DNA of 64,000 bases from a bacterium (GTDB lineage: Bacteria; JAMCPX01), in NCBI GenBank assembly GCA_021787665.1, contig JAJYLN010000003.1, positions 62,001-126,000 of the forward strand, read 5' to 3'. The notes beneath the pieces are model-generated. The model did not search any database and was not told where the DNA came from. It saw only the letters and a list, made by a program, of their open reading frames with translations. Made by a program: the position numbers and the translations under genes. This document shows, in pieces, positions 41,723 through 61,260 of this stretch (position 1 is its first letter; every line of letters begins with the position of its first letter).

Positions 41723-41971
41723 TCAGCCGGCCCTGTCGGCTTTTTTCCGGATTTTTGTGGAGTATTCTCTGAGTGCGGTATTGATAAGGGTCTGGTATCC
41801 GATCTTTGTCTCTGTTGCGAGCTTCTTAAAGAGAACTATCATATCATTATCGATTCTTATAGTCGTGGAAACCTTCTTGGGCACATAAAATCTGCCTCTT
41901 ATACCTTTTGAAAGATCATAGTCCTTCTTGAACGTGAGATCTTCCTTCTCTTTAATGGTTACTTTCTTCAT
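41723..41971 (-). CDS. brnA: BrnA-family antitoxin
   Basis: This 82-residue protein has an N-terminal tail and a ribbon-helix-helix fold: VSTTIRIDNDMIVLFKKLA, then the GYQTLINTALREY pattern characteristic of BrnA. It should neutralise BrnT and bind the promoter DNA as an autorepressor. Its first 20 bases overlap brnT. AT-rich codon use differs from its neighbours, consistent with horizontal acquisition. Confidence 0.85.
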   Translation of the reverse strand: MKKVTIKEKEDLTFKKDYDLSKGIRGRFYVPKKVSTTIRIDNDMIVLFKKLATETKIGYQTLINTALREYSTKIRKKADRAG

Positions 41972-42245
41972 ATTGTTTGCACTCCCTTGTCGTAGCTTGC
42001 CTTACTATTATTATTTTTATGTGTTCTTCCCCGTCCCCGGTGAGAAAGTAGAGATGACCGACAGCGATAACCTTGCCTTTAGGGGTAGCCCCAAAAGTGA
42101 TCCATCTTTCAGAAAAATAGTCGAATCGCTTATCGAGAATAGAAATATGCAGCGGATCATCGAACACCGTCCTTGCTTCTGCAAGAGATATCGCATGCTT
42201 GTTACGGTTGCTTTTGATCTCGCTCGTATCCCACTCAAACAACAT
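41952..42245 (-). CDS. brnT: BrnT-family ribonuclease toxin
   Basis: The 97-residue protein starts LFEWDTSEIKSNRNKHAISLAEARTVF (quoted in parts: FEWD, NKHAISLAEA), the conserved BrnT N-terminus, and continues through a region equivalent to RWITFGATPKGKVIAVGHLY. BrnT is a RelE-fold mRNA-cleaving toxin. The usual order toxin-then-antitoxin is kept. No Shine-Dalgarno precedes the ATG, and the -10 box ends five bases before it. It could have come in with the unusual downstream DNA. Confidence 0.88.
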   Translation of the reverse strand: MLFEWDTSEIKSNRNKHAISLAEARTVFDDPLHISILDKRFDYFSERWITFGATPKGKVIAVGHLYFLTGDGEEHIKIIIVRQATTRECKQYEESNH

Positions 42246-42711: not shown

Positions 42712-42740
42712 TTGTTAAAACGCCTGGCATGCTTTATACT
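42712..42740 (+). promoter_or_regulatory. mnmG promoter
   Basis: TTGTTA, a 17-base spacer and TATACT (five of six -10 bases) lie about 45 bases before the mnmG ATG. The predicted start near 42747 gives a leader that contains the parS site. Confidence 0.55.
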
Positions 42741-42766
42741 AGAAATCCGAAACGGTACAACGAATA

Positions 42767-42782
42767 TGTTTCACGTGAAACA
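42767..42782. promoter_or_regulatory. parS chromosome partition site
   Basis: TGTTTCACGTGAAACA is a perfect 16-base palindrome equal to the canonical parS that ParB binds. It ends two bases before the mnmG ATG and takes the place where a Shine-Dalgarno would be. parS sites cluster near oriC, and mnmG (gidA) often lies there with rsmG, parA and parB; those genes are not in this window. Confidence 0.93.
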
Positions 42783-42784
42783 GT

Positions 42785-44680
42785 ATGAAGAACGTCGACT
42801 TTGACGACCTCTATGACATTATCGTGGTGGGTGCGGGCCATGCAGGTATAGAGGCCTCGCTCGCCGGCGCGCACATGGGATGCACGGTACTCTTGCTCAC
42901 CGGCAACCTCGACACGATAGGCTATATGTCCTGCAATCCAGCCATCGGCGGACTTGCAAAGGGCCATCTTGTCAGGGAGATAGATGCGCTGGGCGGACAG
43001 ATGGCGAAGACGACCGACTTCGCCGGCATGCACTTCAGGAGACTGAACACGAATAAAGGCCCTGCCGTGCGAGGCAACAGGGCGCAGTGTGACAGGGTCA
43101 TGTACCGTACCGGTATGAAGACGGTCATAGAGCAACAGGAAGGCATAGACCTGAAACAGGCGACCGTGACCGGCCTTATCACAGAGGGAAAGGCCATCAA
43201 AGGGGTCGAGACGTCCTTAGGGCTCAGTTTTTTTGGCAAGACGGTCGTTCTCACGACCGGGACCTTCCTGAACGGGCTTATCCATATAGGGCTTACTCAC
43301 TTTCCGGCCGGACGGGCAGGAGAGCCCCCCTCTATCGGCATATCGGACAGCCTGAGACAGCTCGGCTTTACTATAGGGAGGCTGAAGACCGGGACCACCC
43401 CGCGCCTCGATGCAAAAACGATCGATTTCTCTGCCCTCGAGCCCCAGTACAGCGATAACCCTCCGATACCATTTTCTTTCTCCACGGAGAAGATAACAAA
43501 TCCCCTTATCGCCTGTTACATGACCTACACCAATGAGCAGGCCCATGCCTTTATCCTATCCGGGCTGGACCGCTCGCCGCTCTATTCTGGTATTATCAAG
43601 GGGGTGGGTGCGCGCTATTGTCCTTCTATCGAAGATAAAGTTGTGAAATTTAAAGATAAATCAAGGCACCAGATATTCCTCGAGCCTGAAGGCTACAACA
43701 CGAAAGAGGTATACCCCAATGGCCTCGCCACAAGCCTGCCGTACGACATCCAGCTCAAGATGCTACGGGCGATAAAGGGATTGGAAGAAGTCGAGATTAT
43801 GAGGCCGGGTTATGCGATAGAGTACGACTTCGTGGAGCCGACCCAGATCTACCCCACGCTCGAGACAAAGCACGTGAACGGTCTGTACCACGCCGGTCAG
43901 ATAAACGGGACTTCCGGCTATGAAGAGGCCGGGGCACAGGGGCTTGTAGCAGGCATAAACGCAGCCCTGCGGGTCAGGAAGGAGCAGCCCCTCATCATAA
44001 CGCGCCAGCAGGCATACATAGGGGTACTGATCGACGACCTCGTAACGAAGGGCACCCAGGAGCCCTACAGGATGTTTACCTCCAGGGCAGAACACAGGCT
44101 CGTCCTGCGGGAGGACAACGCCGACATCCGGCTCTGCGATATCGGCAGGTCCATAGGGCTGCTGAGCAAGAAGGACTATGCGCTCTTTCTCCAGAGGCGC
44201 GACCAGCGCAATGAGGTGCTGGCCAGGCTGCAATCTTCAAGGGTCAAAGGGGAGCGCGCCCGGGAGGTACTCAGGCAAACAGGTTATGCGGATCTATCCG
44301 ATACGACGACGCTCTATCAGCTCCTCAAGCGGCCAAACATAACCATCAAACATCTCGAGTCCCTGGAGCCTTCCCTCGTGCACGCGGACAGAGCCATAAA
44401 GGACGCGATAGAGGTCGAGGTGAAGTATGACGGCTATATCAAAAGGGAGATAGAGTTCATCCACCGGCTCTCCAGGCTCGAAGATACGAAGATCCCGGAG
44501 GGTTTTTTCTATAATACCATACCCGGGCTATCCACGGAGATAAAGGAGAAGCTCGGAAGGTTCAAGCCGGTAACCCTGGGCCAGGCATCCCGCATCTCCG
44601 GCATAACGCCGGCAGCCATAGCCATCCTCGATGTCTATATAAGAAGATATCGGACGGGCTATTCTGCAAGTACAAAATAG
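42785..44680 (+). CDS. mnmG: tRNA U34 5-carboxymethylaminomethyl modification enzyme
   Basis: MnmG (GidA) with MnmE modifies the wobble uridine of several tRNAs, using FAD. The 631-residue protein has VVGAGHAGIEAS (FAD dinucleotide fold) near residue 15, the SCNPAIGGLAKGHLVREIDALGG block, NGLYHAGQINGTSGYEEAGAQG, and the late helical domain ending with PAAIAILDVYIR. Length is normal. No Shine-Dalgarno is visible because parS fills the space. No rsmG or mnmE is next to it. The 3' end overlaps the convergent DUF35 gene by 22 bases. Confidence 0.97.
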   Translation: MKNVDFDDLYDIIVVGAGHAGIEASLAGAHMGCTVLLLTGNLDTIGYMSCNPAIGGLAKGHLVREIDALGGQMAKTTDFAGMHFRRLNTNKGPAVRGNRAQCDRVMYRTGMKTVIEQQEGIDLKQATVTGLITEGKAIKGVETSLGLSFFGKTVVLTTGTFLNGLIHIGLTHFPAGRAGEPPSIGISDSLRQLGFTIGRLKTGTTPRLDAKTIDFSALEPQYSDNPPIPFSFSTEKITNPLIACYMTYTNEQAHAFILSGLDRSPLYSGIIKGVGARYCPSIEDKVVKFKDKSRHQIFLEPEGYNTKEVYPNGLATSLPYDIQLKMLRAIKGLEEVEIMRPGYAIEYDFVEPTQIYPTLETKHVNGLYHAGQINGTSGYEEAGAQGLVAGINAALRVRKEQPLIITRQQAYIGVLIDDLVTKGTQEPYRMFTSRAEHRLVLREDNADIRLCDIGRSIGLLSKKDYALFLQRRDQRNEVLARLQSSRVKGERAREVLRQTGYADLSDTTTLYQLLKRPNITIKHLESLEPSLVHADRAIKDAIEVEVKYDGYIKREIEFIHRLSRLEDTKIPEGFFYNTIPGLSTEIKEKLGRFKPVTLGQASRISGITPAAIAILDVYIRRYRTGYSASTK

Positions 44681-61162: not shown

Positions 61163-61260
61163 GATAGCCAGGTTTTCCGTGACTTGAACAGTGTTGCTAC
61201 CGTTGCTTCCTCTCGGATCTGGCGGGTTCACAGCTTATTCAAACACAGGACCCGGCTACC
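61163..61260 (-). ncRNA. ffs: Bacterial small SRP RNA (4.5S type)
   Basis: The minus strand reads GAACCCGCCAGATCCGAGAG then GAAGCAACGGTAGC, the helix-8 core of SRP RNA (consensus GCCAGGYCCGGAAGGAAGCAGC) with GNRA-type loop GAGA. GGTAGCC at the 5' end and GGCTATCC at the 3' end can form the closing stem with one bulge. The gene is on the dnaX strand 12 bases upstream of it, a known neighbour in many bacteria. Ends are approximate. Confidence 0.88.

Follow-up and report, generated by a model that had tools for sequence, protein, structure and literature searches.

A single parS palindrome at the mnmG start codon is the candidate centromere of a bacterial chromosome

The DNA analyzed here is a stretch of 64,000 nucleotides (the “window”), corresponding to C6:62001-126000 of the draft genome G000 (35 contigs, 2.25 Mb, 92.7% complete). 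It contains mnmG, which encodes a full-length protein: the GIDA domain and the C-terminal helical bundle are both present and the score exceeds the curated cut-off (Table 1). An initial annotation of this DNA had claimed that a canonical 16-base parS ends two bases before the mnmG ATG, and this is what we found. The perfect palindrome TGTTTCACGTGAAACA is followed by GT (42783-42784) and then by the ATG at 42785. The palindrome itself fixes this start: in the mnmG frame it supplies a TGA, and as there is no start codon between 42785 and the FAD motif, 42785 is the sole possible start. No Shine-Dalgarno motif was seen before this ATG. Its place is occupied by parS, as had also been claimed, and the same holds in the family relatives. 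By a rough count, Shine-Dalgarno-like motifs precede 29 of the 89 other genes on contig C6, compared to 8 in the control. The lineage therefore employs such motifs, though not at every gene.

A promoter-like sequence, TTGTTA-17-TATACT, precedes the palindrome by 26 nt. The inferred mnmG transcript start lies at about position 42747, which would put parS at approximately +20 to +36 in the 5' leader. In most of the family relatives a TATAAT/TATACT-like box, resembling a -10 element, occurs 26-40 nt before parS. Upstream of the mnmG promoter region lies a minus-strand gene (41952-42245) that matched BrnT, a type II toxin-antitoxin toxin (PF04365). Elsewhere in the window, a bacterial small SRP RNA (RF00169, 47.9 bits) was found at 61163-61257 on the minus strand.

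Table 1. Features at the mnmG start, numbered from the first position of the window
Feature	Position	Strand	Evidence or remarks
Putative sigma-70-type mnmG promoter, TTGTTA-17-TATACT	42712..42740	+	9/12 consensus, weak alone
Short out-of-frame upstream ORF (MFHVKQYEERRL), starts on parS, overlaps mnmG start	42766..42804	+	MFHVK start in all six family genomes, tails diverge
parS, perfect palindrome TGTTTCACGTGAAACA	42767..42782		Sole perfect site of the genome; same position in G001 and G007 (perfect) and in G002, G003 and G004 (CATGTG core)
In-frame TGA within parS, fixes mnmG start at 42785	42776..42778	+	Sequence
mnmG (gidA), 631 aa, monocistronic, next gene converges	42785..44680	+	TIGR00136, 860 bits; PF01134, PF21680, PF13932

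To judge how unusual the site is, we searched the whole draft genome. The exact sequence TGTTNCACGTGNAACA occurred once in 2.25 Mb, at mnmG, while a first-order Markov model predicts 0.004 occurrences by chance and a reversed control pattern gave no exact match in the genome. The runner-up in the genome was TGTTGCACCTGCAACA on contig C29, in which the core is broken. Within the 64-kb window, no further parS was found with up to 3 mismatches. A second parS could be absent from a draft of this completeness.

For comparison we used a family set of nine genomes (G000-G008); the next relatives available share only the domain. Six of the family genomes, representing four genera, include the mnmG start, and all of them have parS at the same place, 2-3 nt before the ATG. 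The palindrome is perfect in G000, G001, and G007 (L010), three genomes of two genera, despite the diverged DNA surrounding it. The other three, G002, G003 (L009), and G004, carry TGTTTCATGTGAAACA, in which the core is CATGTG. No other site within one mismatch was present in any of the nine genomes. Across the six, 15 of the 16 parS columns are invariant, whereas the leader and upstream DNA have diverged to the point that two species of one genus barely align. Constancy of this kind amid diverged flanks is strong evidence for selection on the block. The assemblies of G005, G006, and G008 contain neither mnmG nor parS. These three are 80-87% complete, and the shared absence may reflect an assembly gap at the same place.

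The variant core deserves separate consideration. In three genera (L148 (G002), L009/G003:C12:19462, and G004:C8:88424) the sole parS candidate carries CATGTG instead of CACGTG. This CpG to TpG transition leaves the peptide of the overlapping leader ORF unchanged and falls in the loop of a possible RNA hairpin. In P. aeruginosa, changes in the parS core accompany lower ParB affinity (PMC4368675), and by analogy the site in G002, G003, and G004 may be weak or decaying. One possibility was that the specificity residues of ParB track the variant; no correlation was observed and we rejected it. A strand-specific constraint on the core was likewise rejected: in one unrelated genus, CATGTG (G370) and its mirror CACATG (G103) both occur at this same place before mnmG. 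Given this pairing, we think a DNA palindrome that tolerates the change or is drifting more likely than a signal confined to one strand.

The genome also encodes the protein partners of a parS site. The genes parA and parB are adjacent on contig C28, and ParB matches solved Spo0J/ParB structures (best match 1vz0, 2.8e-61) and retains intact CTP-binding boxes, GERRLRA and ENLQRE. Previous work has defined the residue sets that distinguish parS-type ParB from Noc (PMC7383237). The contact residues R173, N178, G201, and R204 (Caulobacter numbering, read from the alignment) are of the parS type and do not belong to the Noc set (Q173/R201).

As the initial annotation had remarked, parA, parB, and rsmG are not in the window, and neither is dnaA. 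The adjacency of the classical origin cluster was not found, as mnmG is on C6, mnmE and dnaA are on C3, parAB on C28, and rsmG on C15. The mnmE and dnaA genes lie head to head (G000:C3:3910-7021); the interval separating them holds the cumulative-skew minimum and a DnaA-box-like site and is likely to be oriC. The same head-to-head pair is kept in G001, G003, G004, and G007. The further proposal that the window lies near oriC, for which GC skew was the suggested check, was supported only indirectly and in part. In G000 itself, parS is on a different contig from dnaA and the skew minimum, at a separation of at least 45 kb, and the skew of C6 is weakly negative with no switch at parS. On the other hand, the distance from parS to dnaA is only 5 kb in G004 and 18.5 kb in G003, and genes of the first 10 kb of the window also flank dnaA in G003. 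On one contig of G004, parB is at 8.8 kb, mnmG with parS at 88.4 kb, and dnaA at 93.6 kb; parS is thus 80 kb from parAB, and mnmE and mnmG are 3 kb apart. The window therefore probably belongs to the origin domain. About 125 bp are common to the start of C6 and both ends of C3, probably a repeat border that broke the assembly. Joining the two contigs through these ends was rejected, since such a repeat boundary gives no linkage.

To determine whether parS precedes mnmG in other bacteria, we searched 386 genomes with a gapped pattern consisting of a parS that allowed C or T at position 8, a spacer of at most 30 nt, an ATG, and the MnmG GAGHAG motif. Eighteen genomes matched, the six of the family and 12 others, and the mirror core CACATG added one more. 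Of the 377 genomes outside the family, about a dozen thus have parS just 5' of mnmG. G058, one of the 12, may have its parS within the gene, as the pattern's ATG there falls inside the conserved motif. In most of the non-family cases parS occupies the gap between mnmE and mnmG and is sometimes followed by a Shine-Dalgarno motif. In an observation of a different kind, the 4.5-Mb genome G055 has 13 perfect TGTTCCACGTGGAACA sites over some 10 contigs (C1 to C31), which is an unusual dispersal for parS. We found nothing specific in the literature on parS in the mnmG/gidA leader. The recurrence across genomes marks parS before mnmG as a recurrent feature of the origin cluster, and probably an old one. 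The peculiarity of the present case is an mnmG that has lost its neighbors yet retained the sole parS.

Taken together, these data suggest that the palindrome is very probably the centromere of this chromosome. The best explanation of the whole, and one in which we have considerable confidence, is a single parS centromere that inherited its position at the mnmG start from the origin cluster, with a modest side effect on mnmG possible. We infer ParB binding, clamp loading, the role in segregation, and the ancestry of the position. ParB dimers, encoded by parAB on another contig, would bind the two parS half-sites through their helix-turn-helix and close into CTP-dependent clamps that slide over mnmG and its promoter; loading of ParB as a CTP clamp that slides outwards is the documented general mechanism (PMC8299390). 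ParA would then pull the ParB-parS complex, and the origin region with it, toward the daughter cell. A single site could be enough for this. In P. aeruginosa a single parS near the origin suffices (PMC4368675), and Xanthomonas campestris has one parS only (PMC7333895). The place of parS at the mnmG start would have been inherited from an mnmE-mnmG-rsmG-parA-parB cluster, in which parS often precedes mnmG. In this family mnmG would have been split from its old neighbors and would have remained in the origin domain with parS because parS was the only centromere left. Given that parS closely follows the promoter within the 5' leader and replaces the Shine-Dalgarno motif, ParB occupancy may modestly lower mnmG transcription as a side effect. 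Any effect of ParB on mnmG is speculative.

A stronger proposal makes ParB bound at parS a dedicated mnmG regulator. In this view, clamps that load just downstream of the promoter would hinder initiation or elongation. An occupied centromere would thus repress mnmG, whereas scarce ParB or a newly replicated parS would relieve the repression, and the tRNA modification that depends on MnmG would then keep step with the segregation cycle. The order of promoter, parS, and ATG, the -10-like boxes 5' of parS in the relatives, the missing Shine-Dalgarno motif, and the recurrence of the arrangement in other lineages are all consistent with this, and there is a precedent in P. aeruginosa, where ParB represses the promoters adjoining parS3 and parS4 (PMC5521831). 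Based on this geometry and precedent, segregation could plausibly be coupled to mnmG expression. However, the neighbors of parS are often unaffected elsewhere, for example in B. subtilis upon loss of Spo0J (PMC7022226), the promoter sequence and its spacing are not strictly kept (G001), and ancestry in the origin cluster accounts for the location without any regulation. We therefore consider a dedicated regulatory role unlikely. An extended version, in which the sole centromere doubles as the mnmG operator and translation-start region, ParB loading sets the level of MnmG, and the CATGTG variants tune the strength of ParB there, seems to us more doubtful still.

It could also be speculated that the block is kept for translation of mnmG and not for ParB, as a leader ORF (MFHVK[HQ]YE..), as an RNA hairpin formed by the palindrome, or as an A-rich initiation signal. 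Each of the six family genomes has a leader ORF starting on the site, the sole variable column (CAC/CAT) is synonymous within it, its stop overlaps the mnmG start in G004 (ATGA), and mnmG has no Shine-Dalgarno motif of its own. However, the tails of the leader differ, from 7 to 16 codons, and in genomes beyond the family a base other than A often precedes parS, which removes the leader ATG. A conserved leader peptide was rejected on these grounds. Folding of the leader RNA was no better than that of shuffled sequences (z from +0.9 to -1.6), and the hairpin was rejected as well. The two mirror-image cores found in one unrelated genus are consistent with a palindrome acting as DNA but not with a signal read from one strand, and a role in translation leaves the complete match to the parS consensus unexplained. 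A translational function in place of ParB binding is thus very unlikely, and the upstream ORF MFHVKQYEERRL is probably a by-product of parS. Least probable of all is that the palindrome is a chance match or a decayed relic that no longer binds ParB in vivo: the altered core in three of the four genera, whose genomes have no better site, would fit decay, but the very low chance expectation, the perfect site in three genomes of two genera amid diverged surroundings, and the intact ParAB argue against it.

A single centromere therefore remains our preferred reading, and it makes this family of interest in several respects. Here parS is fixed at the start codon of one gene across a little-studied family while the surrounding gene order has been reshuffled, which indicates that the link between parS and mnmG can outlast the gene cluster of its origin. 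A chromosome with one identifiable centromere at a start codon is also a clean natural case for studying what holds parS at its position and whether a housekeeping gene responds to ParB occupancy.

The arrangement resembles three known systems and departs from each. Like the Spo0J-type parS of B. subtilis (TGTTNCACGTGAAACA), it consists of the identical 16-bp palindrome together with a cognate ParAB bearing the conserved motifs, and in two relatives (G003 and G004) it lies close to dnaA; in contrast to that system, there is one site and it overlaps the translation start region of mnmG. In the origin cluster mnmE-mnmG-rsmG-parA-parB, parS is likewise directly 5' of mnmG (G060, G081, G222, G241, G255, G370, and L012), whereas here mnmG stands apart from mnmE, rsmG, and parAB as a monocistronic gene preceded by a promoter-like sequence of its own. 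Finally, parS3 and parS4 of P. aeruginosa are intergenic sites before PA0011 and PA0013, beside promoters that ParB represses (PMC5521831). The site described here similarly adjoins a promoter that ParB could repress, although its place is in the leader, directly before the start codon, and the repression is putative.
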